Origin: Porphyromonadaceae bacterium FC4 | GTDB taxonomy: Bacteria; Bacteroidota; Bacteroidia; Bacteroidales; Porphyromonadaceae | Length of the DNA: 64,000 nucleotides | Reading direction: 5' to 3' | Assembly (NCBI GenBank): GCA_900120395.1 | Contig: LT635553.1 | Location: forward strand, 1,594,254 to 1,658,253 | Part shown: piece by piece, positions 4,128-61,340 of the stretch | Layout of the letters: every line of letters begins with the position of its first letter | Numbering within the stretch: the first letter of the stretch is position 1 | Made by a program: the position numbers and the translations under genes | The notes under the pieces: generated by a model | Told to the model about the DNA's origin: nothing | Databases searched by the model: none | What the model saw: only the letters and a program-made list of their open reading frames with translations

Positions 4128-7084
4128 TTCTGTTCGTGATAAAGTTTAAGCGCCTGGTACTTGTTTTCCCCTCTCATTCGCATGCCGGCATCCAGGCCAT
4201 GCCCTTCTTTCCCCTGCCAGTAGCGCACCCGGATGTAGTGAGGTCCGGCAGCGAGTGCCACCTTTCCGGTCGCAGAGACATAGGCGTGTGAGCCGTCATT
4301 GAGCACCACGGCGGTGTCATCGATCTCCAGCACCGAGCCGTCATCGCTGGTGAGGATAAACTCATACACTCCATCTGTCGGTGCCTGAATCAAGCCCTCA
4401 AAGATCAAGCCGTAGTCGTCATCACGCTGGCGGAGTTCATTGGTGATCTTATCGGATGTGTCGCTCTTGACCAGTTTGCCGGCGGCTATCTCATCAACAG
4501 ACGCAAAAGTTCCTTCGTAGAGGCGGTACTGAGCGCCCTCCTGAAGGTTCGTTGCCTCTACGGCGGGCAGGAGCACTGCTTTTGTAGCCAACATCGTGCT
4601 GACACTCGAGGGTTCACCACCGGCTAGCGCAACAGCCTTGATCGTGACATCTTCGCTCACTTCAAAGGGAGCTTCGTAGCGGGTAGACTCTGTGGTAGGA
4701 GTCGTACCGTCAAGGGTGTAGTATATCGTGCTATTGGGCGTAGCGGATGCCAGATCCACAGTCACCTGATCCTCAAAAAGCACCAGGTCTGCAGTGGTAT
4801 ATACAGGAGAAGCTGTCTCCTTAGTCGTGAGGGAGTATGGCTCCTGCTCTACAGCATAGTCCCTGACCGGCTCATTCGTCAGCTCAAACTTGAGCTCACC
4901 TCCCGCCATGATCTCGTCGTACGTGATGAAGAGACGATCCAGCTTCTTGCCATTGAGGCTCACAGACTTGATGTAGCGGTTGTCGTAGGGGGAGTTGGCC
5001 TTGATCACCAGCTCATTGCCGGTAGCTGTGTGCAGGGTCAACTTTGGGAAGAGCGGGGTCGTCAGTATGTACTCTCCTGATCCGGGGGTCACCGGATAGA
5101 AGCCCATTGCAGACATGACGTACCAAGCGGACATCTGACCACAGTCTTCGTTGCCAATGATGCCGTCAGGCTCCGACGAATACATCTCATCGAGAAGGCG
5201 TCGGGTCAGCTCCTGAGTTTTCCAAGGCTGTCCGGCATAGGTATAGAGGTATGCCACATGATGGCTCGGCTCATTGCCGTGAGCATACTGCCCCAGGAGA
5301 CCGGTGATGTCCTGTAGCTCTCCCTCATGCTTGCGGTCATCGCCAAACATATTATCCAGAGACTGAATAAACGCCTCTCGACCGCCGTGCATCTGGATCA
5401 GTCCATTGATGTCGTGCTGTGGAGCATAGCGGTAGTGCCAAGCAGTAGCCTCGGTATAGTTGCGGCTCACGGCATAAGGATCAAAGTTGGGCTCCCATGA
5501 GCCGTCGAAGTTGCGTCCGCGGAAGAAACCGGTGCTACCGTCAAATAGGCGAATGTAGTTGAGGGCTCTGCTCCGGTACGTGTCGTACAGATCCGTCTTG
5601 CCCATCGCTTTTGCCATCATAGCAATCAGCCAGTCATCATACGTGTACTCGAGGGTGCAGGAGACGGACTCATTTTTGCGATCAGCCGGGATGAAGCCAT
5701 ACTCTACATAGTAGTCCGAGCCTTTTTTATTGATATTCGAGGAGTGCACCATCGCCAGCATTGCCCGCTCTGCATCAAAAGAGCCAATCCCTCTCAGGTA
5801 AGCATCAGCGATAACAGATACTGAATGGTAGCCAATCATACAGTGGGTCTCACCACTCATCAGGGGCCAAATAGGCAGCTCGCCCTGCTCATCGTACATG
5901 CGCAGCATGGACCACACCACATTGTCCACCAACTCATGATCCATCAGAGTAAGCAGCGGGTGAAGTGTCCGATAGGTATCCCAGAGTGAAAGGGTACTGT
6001 AGTGCACCTGACCCTCCGGCAGGCTATGTAGCTGTCCATCATTGCCCAGGTAAGTCCCCTCCACGTCGCTCGTACGGTTGGGAGCGATGTAGGCGTGGTA
6101 GAGGGCTGTGTAGAAGACGGTGAGGTCCCGCCTATCGCCCATGGGCACCTCTATCTGACTGAGGACCTCCTGCCAAGCTTCTTCATTAGCGGTCTGCACT
6201 TCGTCAAATGTCCGATCCTCCAGCTGACTCTCGAGGTTGGCCTTTGCAGCCTCATAAGAGGTGGTCGACAGTCCGACATAAGCCTCCAGCGGTGTCGCCG
6301 CATGGTCAAAAGAGAGGATCGCACGTATGGAGTCTCCATCAGCCGTGGCCTCAGGCATCAGGGTGCCGTTTTCGTATACTTCTACCCCCTGTATAGGTCT
6401 GCTGAAGCGTGCATAAAAGTAGACTTTTGTCCCGGTCGTCCATCCGTCTGTTGCTTGCAGTCCTTGGACCTCATACTCGTTGACCTGCTCAAACTTGGTC
6501 TCGAGCATCGTCCGTGGCTTGAGGGTCACTAGGTCGATGACTACAGCCTGCTCCGCATCATCCGGGTAGGTGTATCGGTGCACACCGACCAGCGGGGTCG
6601 TCGTCAGCTCCACATGGATACCATTGTCCATCTTCACACTGTAGTAGCCGGCATGAGCAGATTCATTTTTGTGCGAAAAGCCGGTCTTGGGGAGGTGGCG
6701 CTGTGCTATACTGTCCCTAAAGAGCTGCGGATCGTTGGTCGGGACAAAGAGGACATCACTGAGATCGGTCGCTCCGGTGCCACTGAGGTGCGTATGGGCA
6801 AATCCATACAGGGAGTTGTCCGAGTAGTGATAGCCGGAGCAAGCGTCCCAGCCCTCCCAGCGGGTATCCGGGCTGAGCTGCACCAGACCATTGGGCGACG
6901 TAGCACCGGGGAAGGTGTGCCCGTGGAAGTCTGTGCCAATGAACGGATCTACCTGCTCATACAGTTTGGGATTCACCGGCATGAGCTCTTTATTATTCTT
7001 AGGGGTACACGCCCACACTAAGCTTGCAAGTGCAAATGCACCTATCAGATGGATCTTGAATCGGTTACTTGTCATTTTGTTCAT
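4124..7084 (-). CDS. GH92 alpha-mannosidase lipoprotein with chitobiase-like and PA14 C-terminal domains
   Basis: The 986-residue protein starts with a lipoprotein signal (SLVWAC, Cys26). GH92 signatures run from VDPFIGT and GHTFPGATSPNG near the N-terminus to GNEDCGQMSAWYVMSAMGFY before the end of the catalytic part. GH92 enzymes are calcium-dependent exo-alpha-mannosidases, most often alpha-1,2. After the catalytic modules comes a chitobiase/HEX-C-like segment (IYYTLDGTTPTTES) and then a PA14-like domain (TSDDGSVLEIDD) resembling that of the neighbouring metallophosphoesterase. A GH92 with both extra domains is longer than the usual 730-780 residues. Start codons at 7084 or 7075 both overlap the end of the PI-PLC gene. 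It probably acts at the cell surface or in the periplasm on mannosides released or exposed by its partners. Confidence 0.93.
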   Translation of the reverse strand: MNKMTSNRFKIHLIGAFALASLVWACTPKNNKELMPVNPKLYEQVDPFIGTDFHGHTFPGATSPNGLVQLSPDTRWEGWDACSGYHYSDNSLYGFAHTHLSGTGATDLSDVLFVPTNDPQLFRDSIAQRHLPKTGFSHKNESAHAGYYSVKMDNGIHVELTTTPLVGVHRYTYPDDAEQAVVIDLVTLKPRTMLETKFEQVNEYEVQGLQATDGWTTGTKVYFYARFSRPIQGVEVYENGTLMPEATADGDSIRAILSFDHAATPLEAYVGLSTTSYEAAKANLESQLEDRTFDEVQTANEEAWQEVLSQIEVPMGDRRDLTVFYTALYHAYIAPNRTSDVEGTYLGNDGQLHSLPEGQVHYSTLSLWDTYRTLHPLLTLMDHELVDNVVWSMLRMYDEQGELPIWPLMSGETHCMIGYHSVSVIADAYLRGIGSFDAERAMLAMVHSSNINKKGSDYYVEYGFIPADRKNESVSCTLEYTYDDWLIAMMAKAMGKTDLYDTYRSRALNYIRLFDGSTGFFRGRNFDGSWEPNFDPYAVSRNYTEATAWHYRYAPQHDINGLIQMHGGREAFIQSLDNMFGDDRKHEGELQDITGLLGQYAHGNEPSHHVAYLYTYAGQPWKTQELTRRLLDEMYSSEPDGIIGNEDCGQMSAWYVMSAMGFYPVTPGSGEYILTTPLFPKLTLHTATGNELVIKANSPYDNRYIKSVSLNGKKLDRLFITYDEIMAGGELKFELTNEPVRDYAVEQEPYSLTTKETASPVYTTADLVLFEDQVTVDLASATPNSTIYYTLDGTTPTTESTRYEAPFEVSEDVTIKAVALAGGEPSSVSTMLATKAVLLPAVEATNLQEGAQYRLYEGTFASVDEIAAGKLVKSDTSDKITNELRQRDDDYGLIFEGLIQAPTDGVYEFILTSDDGSVLEIDDTAVVLNDGSHAYVSATGKVALAAGPHYIRVRYWQGKEGHGLDAGMRMRGENKYQALKLYHEQK

Positions 7085-8199: not shown

Positions 8200-8279
8200 T
8201 TTCCTACTGGAAACAGATCGCTACTATCCGTCAAATCATTTTCTTTCCTACTGGAAACATTTCTCTTCTATCCGTCAAA
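8200..8279 (+). repeat. 44-bp-unit composite repeat, copy 2
   Basis: The palindromes TTTCCTACTGGAAAC begin at 8200 and 8244, each followed by CTATCCGTCAAA. The downstream GC-rich block ends GGCAAAAATAGGG near 8313. The copy is part of the extended element 8149-8470. Confidence 0.9.
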
Positions 8280-16370: not shown

Positions 16371-16747
16371 GCGACCCCTGGCGGGGTCGCGCCATGGTAT
16401 CTGATGGTATGACTCCAACGTCCGTCGGAGTCGTGTTTTGGGAGGGCTCGTATTCCCAGGGTCAGACGCTCCTAACGTCGCTCTGACCCTGGGCTATACT
16501 CTATGACCCCGACATCCGTCGGGGTCACCTCCCCGCCGACTTGCTTTCTTAGGGTCAGAGCTCCTCCGGAGCTCTGACCCTAAGCTATGCTCTATGACCC
16601 CGACGGATGTCGGGGTCACCCTCGGACGACGAAAGACGACCCCGATAGGGGTCGTACAATATAGCCCCGGGTCAGAGCTCCGGAGGAGCGTCTGACCCGG
16701 GGTAACCGTTCCGCCCCTCATCCCCGACCCTGACGCACGTCGGGGTC
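16371..16747. repeat. Array of nine GC-rich palindromes
   Basis: Nine hairpins occur in 377 bp. The arms are 16371-16378/16383-16390, 16411-16416/16427-16432, 16455-16466/16482-16493, 16505-16513/16518-16526, 16549-16564/16568-16583 (a perfect 16-bp stem with a 3-nt loop), 16596-16604/16609-16617, 16636-16643/16648-16655, 16665-16676/16691-16702 and 16726-16734/16739-16747. Two stem types recur: GACCCCGAC against GTCGGGGTC, and GGGTCAGA against TCTGACCC. It lies between the promoter region of the SusC/D set and the 3' end of coaA. It could be a nest of REP-like elements or a strong terminator block. Confidence 0.9.
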
Positions 16748-16768
16748 GTACCACTGAGGGCGCAAAAG

Positions 16769-16848
16769 TTTCCTCTGGAAACATTTTGCTACTATCCGTC
16801 AAATCGTTTTCTTTCCTACTGGAAACTTTTCGCTTCTATCCGTCAAAT
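16769..16848 (+). repeat. 44-bp-unit composite repeat, copy 3
   Basis: The palindromes start at 16769 (TTTCCTCTGGAAAC, one base shorter) and 16812, each followed by CTATCCGTCAAAT. A GC-rich block ending GGTAAAAATGGG follows to about 16880, just before the coaA stop. Confidence 0.88.
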
Positions 16849-16888
16849 TTTTTTGCGGAGTGGCGAAGGGTAAAAATGGGATGGAGGC

Positions 16889-23307: not shown

Positions 23308-23468
23308 CGGAAAGAATTCCGATCACCCTAATTTATGTACCCCGGGTCGGCAGCACCCCGCCAGGGGTCGCAGCAAGGTTCGATCACTTGGCAAACAACA
23401 ATCACCTATACCGCTGATAAACAACTCAATAGGCATCCTCAAAAACAAAGACAACCGGGAGCAAAAAG

Positions 23469-23894: not shown

Positions 23895-23899
23895 CACCG

Positions 23900-23966
23900 T
23901 GTTTTTCATAGTATTAGATTTTAGGTTAATATTGAGAAAAGGGTTGTCGGGAGACAACCTTTTTCT
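23900..23966 (+). ncRNA. Short leader or small RNA of about 65 nt
   Basis: Between the promoter and a strong terminator lies about 65 nt containing GTGTTTTTCATAGTATTAG. I recall a very similar block at the 5' end of many Bacteroidales transcripts. It has no open frame of note. It may be a free small RNA or an attenuating leader of the gene at 24028. The transcript ends are inferred. Confidence 0.5.
23937..23965 (+). terminator. Intrinsic terminator with T-tract
   Basis: The stem is GGTTGTC (23942-23948) against GACAACC (23953-23959), with loop GGGA. It is preceded by AAAA and followed by TTTTTC and TTTTT. It lies 60-90 bp before a coding start, which suggests attenuation or the end of a small RNA. 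Confidence 0.75.
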
Positions 23967-24027
23967 TTTTATCTTTACAGCTGAAGCGTGAAGCCAATGC
24001 GGCTCCATCCTAAAAGAGACTCACTCC

Positions 24028-29724: not shown

Positions 29725-29847
29725 CAATCGCACGATTAGTCATTATCCGTGTAAAGATACCCATTTCTCCAAATGTAGTGGATGAAGCCAGCACAAGCAA
29801 CAGGATTGACCCAAATGGATTTTTTCACTTCGGGCACGCACAAAAAA

Positions 29848-29928
29848 TTTGACGGATAGTAGAGAAAAGTTTCCAGTAGGAAAGAGATCGCTTCTATCCG
29901 TCAAATCGTTCGGTTTCCTACTGGAAAC
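29848..29928 (-). repeat. 44-bp-unit composite repeat, copy 5 (rearranged)
   Basis: The left half reads as the reverse complement of the usual element: TTTGACGGATAG, then TTTCCAGTAGGAAA. The middle part (AGATCGCTTCTATCCGTCAA) and the right palindrome TTTCCTACTGGAAAC are in the forward sense. The flank beyond (CTTTTGGCGTTCAGGTACC) is again reverse. So the inner spacer is inverted relative to the other nine copies. The interval 29734-30174 separates divergent genes and holds nothing else that I can name. Confidence 0.88.
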
Positions 29929-41909: not shown

Positions 41910-41990
41910 TTTGACGGATAGGAGGGGAATGTTTCCAGTAGGAAAGAGAACGGTTTGACGGATAGAAGAGAAAGGTTTCCAGTAGGAAAC
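41910..41990 (-). repeat. 44-bp-unit composite repeat, copy 6
   Basis: Read on the minus strand, the palindromes TTTCCTACTGGAAAC are followed by TCTATCCGTCAAA and CCTATCCGTCAAA. The upstream module (minus strand, about 42052-41995) begins CTGATAAACAAACAGATATA and aligns with copy 1. It lies in the 341-bp gap between the island and glyS. Confidence 0.88.
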
Positions 41991-46303: not shown

Positions 46304-46383
46304 TTTCCTACTGGAAACCGTTTGCTACTATCCGTGAAATCGTTTTCTTTCCTACTGGAAACTTTTCTCTTCTATCCGTCAAA
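46304..46383 (+). repeat. 44-bp-unit composite repeat, copy 7
   Basis: The palindromes begin at 46304 and 46348, followed by CTATCCGTGAAAT (one base changed) and CTATCCGTCAAAT. A block ending GGACAAAAATTCC follows to about 46412. It lies in the 258-bp gap between lpxB and the YeiH-family gene. Confidence 0.9.
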
Positions 46384-51653: not shown

Positions 51654-51734
51654 TTTGACGGATAGTAGCGAAAAGTTTCCAGTAGGAAAGAAAACGATTT
51701 GACGGATAGAAGCAAACTGTTTCCGGTAGGAAAC
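51654..51734 (-). repeat. 44-bp-unit composite repeat, copy 8
   Basis: Read on the minus strand: TTTCCTACCGGAAAC, CTTCTATCCGTCAAATCG, TTTCCTACTGGAAAC and CTACTATCCGTCAAAT, then the block TTTTGTCCGAATCCGG. It occupies the 252-bp gap between the TetR gene and fabG. Confidence 0.9.
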
Positions 51735-56183: not shown

Positions 56184-56263
56184 TTTCCTACTGGAAACAG
56201 ATCGCTACTATCCGTCAAATCATTTTCTTTTCTACTGGAAACATTTCCCTTCTATCCGTCAAA
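56184..56263 (+). repeat. 44-bp-unit composite repeat, copy 9
   Basis: The palindromes are at 56184 and 56228 (second reads TTTTCTACTGGAAAC), followed by CTATCCGTCAAAT. GACGTGTAC stands just before, as in copy 2. It is part of an element extending to about 56453 that matches 8181-8470, in a convergent gap. Confidence 0.9.
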
Positions 56264-61259: not shown

Positions 61260-61340
61260 TTTCCTACAGGAAACCGTTCGCTTCTATCCGTGAAACGCTT
61301 CTCTTTCCTACCGGAAACAGTTTGCTTCTATCCGTGAAAT
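61260..61340 (+). repeat. 44-bp-unit composite repeat, copy 10 (diverged)
   Basis: The palindromes TTTCCTACAGGAAAC at 61260 and TTTCCTACCGGAAAC at 61304 are 44 bp apart, followed by CTATCCGTGAAA. Compensating loop and block changes mark it as older. It lies in the 369-bp gpmA-asd gap, upstream of the asd start. Confidence 0.85.

Follow-up and report, generated by a model that had tools for sequence, protein, structure and literature searches.

The window, by which we mean the whole 64,000-nucleotide stretch analysed here (G000:C4:1594254-1658253, from a genome of 2.12 Mb in four contigs), contains a dense array of hairpins at positions 16371–16748; genes of SusC/SusD type, together with the Bacteroidetes FopS sRNA described below, suggest that the genome is that of a member of the Bacteroidota. 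An earlier sequence-only reading had described nine hairpins in 377 bp, and all nine were re-found independently. In order of position, these are a1 (16371–16390, no strand assigned; GCGACCCC tggc GGGGTCGC), b (16406–16437, plus strand, core 16411–16432; GACTCCAAC gtcc GTCGGAGTC) with a conserved A.C mismatch that is G.T on the other strand, c1 (16455–16493, plus strand; CCCAGGGTCAGA ... TCTGACCCTGGG) with an ATAG foot on the minus strand, d1 (16504–16527, plus strand; TGACCCCGAC atcc GTCGGGGTCA), c2 (16548–16584, plus strand; CTTAGGGTCAGAGCTCC tcc GGAGCTCTGACCCTAAG), which is c in a compensated form, d2 (16595–16618, plus strand; TGACCCCGAC ggat GTCGGGGTCA), the exact reverse complement of d1, a2 (16636–16655, no strand assigned; ACGACCCC gata GGGGTCGT), e (16664–16703, plus strand; CCCCGGGTCAGA ... 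TCTGACCCGGGG) with an ATAG foot on its 5′ side, and d' (16725–16748, plus strand; CGACCCTGAC gcac GTCGGGGTCG). The linker CTATRCTCTATGA is repeated within the array, as had been noticed before. Folded as single-stranded DNA, the 377 nt reached −130.2 kcal/mol compared with −66.9 ± 3.9 kcal/mol for shuffled sequences (z −16.2, 0 of 100 shuffles).

The stems had also been reported to recur near 1380–1482 and as a trace at 23341–23370, and both remnants are real. The first is a small degenerate copy of the array (1379–1485, no strand assigned) consisting of an e-type hairpin at 1379–1418 and an a-type hairpin at 1463–1485, and the second is a remnant of e and a stems (23339–23371, no strand assigned) with an element of another repeat, designated family-2, about 90 bp downstream. 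A family-2 repeat also adjoins the array of nine hairpins (16764–16856, plus strand; GCAAAAGTTTCC..GGAAAC, with CTATCCGTCAAAT present twice, 44 bp apart). An Rfam search of the window gave as its sole match the Bacteroidetes FopS sRNA family at 23899–23971 (plus strand, 69.8 bits, gathering threshold 56), which lies elsewhere in the window and is unrelated to the array.

The two stem motifs recognised earlier were upheld and could be refined to two superfamilies with five sub-forms, from which the arrays are built, namely CCC[CA]GGGTCA(GA)/(TC)TGACCC[TG]GGG and GAC[CT]CC(GAC)/(GTC)GG[GA]GTC. The canonical order of hairpins is a - e - d' - b - c - d - a. Hairpins e and c represent one stem in opposite orientations and carry an outer N[TC]AG foot in 49 of about 50 cases; d' and b likewise represent one stem in opposite orientations, and their corresponding strand often contains a G.T wobble (38 oriented sites). 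As e/c and d'/b each form an inverted pair, the array unit is a nested inverted pair with the geometry of REPINs and BIMEs. In the b stem, 28 of 30 copies have a mismatch at pair 7, which reads A.C on one strand and G.T on the other; irregular or mismatched stem positions serve as contact points in IS608, ISDra2 and the E. coli REP (PMC8266576), which may explain why this mismatch has been kept. Compensated arm changes, which the sequence-only reading had regarded as evidence of conserved pairing, are real but few, affecting five pairs in stems b and c (30-copy alignment, matched by 0 of 500 shuffles); the stems are mostly invariant and the variation sits in linkers and loops. The main compensated changes are CCCAGGG/CCCTGGG to CTTAGGG/CCCTAAG, and CCCCGGG/CCCGGGG. 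A GTAG foot was found at just 4 of 49 c/e hairpins, the remaining c/e feet being N[TC]AG; none of the a, b or d hairpins carries a foot of the GT[AG]G type, and a CGTC foot is present at 0 of 38 d'/b hairpins. Extra recurring modules adjoin the arrays in L047, L048, L051, L052, L056, L061, L063 and L068, consisting of CCCGGGGTCTTCGGTGC..GACACCCGGG and GGCACCCC..GGGGTGC hairpins.

A genome-wide search for the stems, as had been suggested, returned numerous copies. The d form GACCCCGACNNNNGTCGGGGTC was found at 90 places with up to 3 mismatches (reversed control 3), GGGTCAGASNNCC at 44 (reversed control 1), and the short a form CGACCCC-N3-4-GGGGTCG in 149 exact copies (reversed control 0). From the surroundings of the d and e matches 29 arrays with at least three hairpins were defined, all of them intergenic; the single ORF overlap in the array table is a short over-extended ORF beside the transposase gene described below, the ORF calls being crude. 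A replication-strand bias of the arrays was not significant (p 0.10), and 11 further members of the genus had no copy of the long-stem d form in their genomes.

Alternatively, the arrays could act at the 3′ ends of transcripts, as functional RNA or as termination elements, and have been spread or kept for this role, the transposase gene having just happened to land in one of them. The location of all arrays between genes, which by crude ORF calls are convergent at 10 and in tandem at 12 of the 29, would suit such a role, as would the strong hairpins and the T runs that follow some b hairpins. We nevertheless consider it unlikely, because the terminator-like sites in the array region (3 against 1.2 ± 1.2 in shuffles) show no clear excess and are not among the nine hairpins, and because the remaining 7 arrays lie between divergent genes according to the same crude calls. 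A simple terminator of the coaA set, named before as the alternative, is not supported either: no hairpin of the array scores as a terminator, and the about 29 arrays occupy unrelated intergenic regions.

When the complete genome was searched with the Pfam model Y1_Tnp, exactly one gene was identified, a 142-aa ORF located outside the window (L064:5148-5576, corresponding to G000:C4:787647-788072). It sits inside the largest array copy and is flanked on both sides, with one array ending 88 bp upstream and another beginning 17 bp downstream; a family-2 repeat is present at the end of this array as it is in the window. Compared with the other arrays, the window array most closely resembles the 3′ flank of this gene (82% over 359 bp), and both contain the same order of eight hairpins, b-c-d-c-d-a-e-d'. 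The closest kin of the window array is thus the array adjacent to tnpA, which would fit a source-copy relation in whichever direction. Upstream of an ORF starting at L064:6913 the dinucleotide AG is repeated about 16 times (L064 about 6660-6692), which possibly makes this tract prone to slippage.

The transposase carries the motifs DHVH, WQ and YIENQQKHH, and an alignment of 52 relatives shows no variation at H54, H56, W94, Q95, Y114, Q118, H121 and H122. It passed the NCBIfam IS200 equivalog model (76.9 vs a cut-off of 55) and failed the NCBIfam REP_Tyr_transpos model (35.2 bits vs a cut-off of 80), and its tyrosine motif YIENQQKHH is not Y..NP. The AlphaFold model (pLDDT 88) matched ISDra2, IS608 and other TnpA proteins of the IS200 type first, followed by the E. 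coli RAYT (4er8). Y---Q--HH is the signature of TnpA_Y1 subclass 1.2 (PMC6006769), and by signature and curated models, rather than by the original clustering, the protein belongs to the IS200-lineage subclass 1.2 and not to the class-2 TnpA_REP (RAYT) proteins. The RAYT-like transposase that the sequence-only reading had proposed to look for was therefore found in so far as one Y1/HuH gene is embedded in the arrays, but it is of a different subclass. With the published members of subclass 1.2 it shares DH[IV]H, WQ and Y---Q--HH, a length of about 150 aa, low copy number and occurrence in Bacteroidota (PMC6006769). That subclass was entered as REP ‘no’ in 2018 (Table 1 of PMC6006769) and described as having no typical IS hairpins, whereas recurring hairpins, several of them dispersed, accompany most members tested here.

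Passing the IS200 equivalog model and having ISDra2 and IS608 TnpA as nearest folds, the transposase could be part of a normal insertion sequence of the IS200/IS605 type that ends in hairpins, in which case the dispersed hairpins would be decayed ends. The catalytic core and the fold are indeed alike, hairpin substrates are expected, and a mismatch is kept in one stem type. This origin is quite improbable, however, as one gene copy faces 149 exact a-hairpins and about 29 arrays, several hairpins in arrays lie on each side of the gene instead of one hairpin per end, the window array has no gene remnant, and Y---Q--HH is the signature of a non-IS subclass. No tnpB was seen, and unlike in IS608 and ISDra2 the hairpins far outnumber the genes. 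With one gene copy and no fixed ends, transposase and hairpins do not constitute an IS as defined.

The generality of the association between gene and hairpins was assessed at 114 loci with transposase relatives that were chosen by protein similarity only, the flanks having no part in the selection; 102 of them had enough flank for the hairpin test, and 99 of these 102 showed the signature Y---Q--H[HRQKN]. At least two hairpins of a recurring type lay within 500 bp of the gene at 70 of 102 loci and at least three at 42, compared with at least two in 12 of 510 shuffled flanks (2%). Near flanks were positive in 42 of 57 cases and flanks 1.5 kb away in 7 of 57 (Wilcoxon p 4.5e-8). Just two hairpins, as an IS would have, were present at 28 of the 70 positive loci, and the test counts such two-end cases; at 32 of the 102 subclass-1.2 loci recurring hairpins were missing. 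Subclass-1.2 genes were also frequent among the Planctomycetota loci. At L167:2892-4200 (Acidobacteria MAG J023), a subclass-1.2 gene is followed by more than 12 recurring hairpins that are arranged in tandem with a regular period of 123 bp. Recurring hairpins at unrelated subclass-1.2 genes of other phyla are left unexplained if the arrays are RNA or termination elements.

GACC[CT]C hairpins were found within 1 kb of the gene at 15 loci in the order and genus of the window and at 0 of 80 loci from other groups. In a comparison of 392 further genomes of this order, CGACCCCN3-4GGGGTCG was present in 26 of 59 genomes with the gene and in 26 of 333 without it (p 6e-11, phylogeny being considered by family count alone; the reversed control gave one match in one genome). 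Five or more copies of the stem occurred in 11 of the 59 genomes with the gene, spanning 10 families, and in 2 of the 333 without. A different stem, CCCAGGGC/GCCCTGGG, first met beside one subclass-1.2 gene, was counted in five Planctomycetota MAGs with relatives of the transposase and gave 18, 14, 235, 6 and 9 copies; it was missing from a Bacteroidia MAG, and the controls gave 0. The 235 copies of CCCAGGGC-NNN-GCCCTGGG (up to 1 mismatch) are those of G405, a Gemmataceae MAG and the genome of locus L115, counted along with G403, G404, G406 and G407; the hairpin is the one located beside the subclass-1.2 gene of another Gemmataceae MAG. In the sister species G001 and G006 the tested hairpins beside the subclass-1.2 gene stay near the gene; dispersal had been expected for them and was not seen.

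Taken together, we interpret the window array as a REP-like palindrome cluster, similar to BIMEs and REPINs, of a genome-wide family whose likely source and mobiliser is the solitary subclass-1.2 HuH/Y1 transposase, and we assign a probability of roughly three in four to this reading. The hairpins are associated with the transposase, by which they would be mobilised. By homology to IS608, ISDra2 and TnpA_REP, which act on single-stranded hairpins with a tyrosine (PMC8266576), TnpA would bind the hairpins while the DNA is single-stranded during replication or repair and would cut beside the hairpin via Tyr114, His54 and His56 presumably holding a metal ion. It might then move or copy hairpin pairs or entire arrays into other intergenic sites, after which local duplication and recombination could let the arrays grow and diverge; effects on the host (mRNA 3′ ends, supercoiling) would be secondary. 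What speaks against this interpretation, judged from sequence comparison, is that mobilisation is a prediction, that most hairpins have no GT[AG]G foot, that the hairpins of G001 and G006 are not dispersed and that about a third of the loci have no recurring ones.

The likeness to clustered REP/BIME elements suggested by the sequence-only reading holds for the layout, the copies and the embedded gene, and not for membership in the GTAG-REP/RAYT family, for which foot and protein class differ. As in a REPtron (REP/BIME/REPIN with RAYT; PMC2817692, PMC3116915, PMC8266576), dispersed intergenic palindromes form inverted doublets and mosaic clusters, and the repeats of each family flank a single full-length HuH-Y1 gene. 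In contrast to a REPtron, the enzyme has Y---Q--HH instead of Y..NP, hairpins a, b and d lack the GT[AG]G foot while c and e have only N[TC]AG, and the hairpins, about nine of them, are assembled into large composite arrays with a set order. The family thus works like a REPtron yet stands outside the GT[AG]G-REP/RAYT family. The CGTC-tagged REPs, reported in Bacteroidetes among other phyla, are also small palindromes in dimers, but they carry a CGTC tag and have no dedicated transposase (PMC3733652), whereas here a transposase is embedded. The best reading is to file the hairpins as the REP system of a subclass-1.2 transposase.

More broadly, the evidence leans towards subclass 1.2 being a separately arisen REP system, in which an IS200-lineage, usually low-copy enzyme of Bacteroidota, Planctomycetota and other phyla would maintain its own short, mostly perfect hairpins (7–8 bp stem, 3–4 nt loop, no GT[AG]G guide), stem and enzyme evolving together. 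Searches of the open-licence literature turned up no earlier description of REPs linked to subclass 1.2. An orphan branch of HuH transposases thereby gains candidate cognate DNA, and it becomes testable how REP systems arose, as REP-dispersing enzymes may have evolved twice, independently, within one superfamily: in class 2, which goes with the GT[AG]G foot, and in class 1.2, which does not. The GACCCC/GGGGTC stem is kept beside enzymes that are just about 40–50% identical, and these natural pairs in many genomes are suited to the study of recognition rules. Searches for a GT[AG]G foot overlook this widespread class of repeats.

One element of the family-2 repeat lies within about 250 bp of 26 of the 29 arrays (L047-L070 and the window element), which exceeds the 52–58% base rate of long array-free intergenic gaps (p 2e-5 to 2e-4) and the 21% obtained at random positions. 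The excess of family-2 elements beside arrays is real but modest. It could mean that the hairpin arrays go with this commoner repeat and are moved by its mobiliser, tnpA being incidental, which is very improbable: half of the comparable gaps also hold an element, side and orientation are random (7/6/6/5), and the link between gene and hairpins recurs in other phyla with different stems. A fixed geometry of array and family-2 element was ruled out by the same random distribution. The repeat of about 95 bp has the arrangement GCAAAAAGTTTCCTACTGGAAAC..CTATCCGTCAAAT (twice, 44 bp apart)..TTTTTTGC and was found at 357 mostly intergenic sites of the genome with up to 1 mismatch (reversed control 0), outnumbering the hairpin arrays. 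The 11 additional genomes from the genus are essentially free of it, and it shows no strand bias (91/91 in an even 800 kb sample). Within the window, its CTATCCGT sites are located at 364, 8224-8268, 16792-16836, 23493, 29743-29894, 41910-41954, 46328-46372, 51654-51698, 56208-56252 and 61284-61328.
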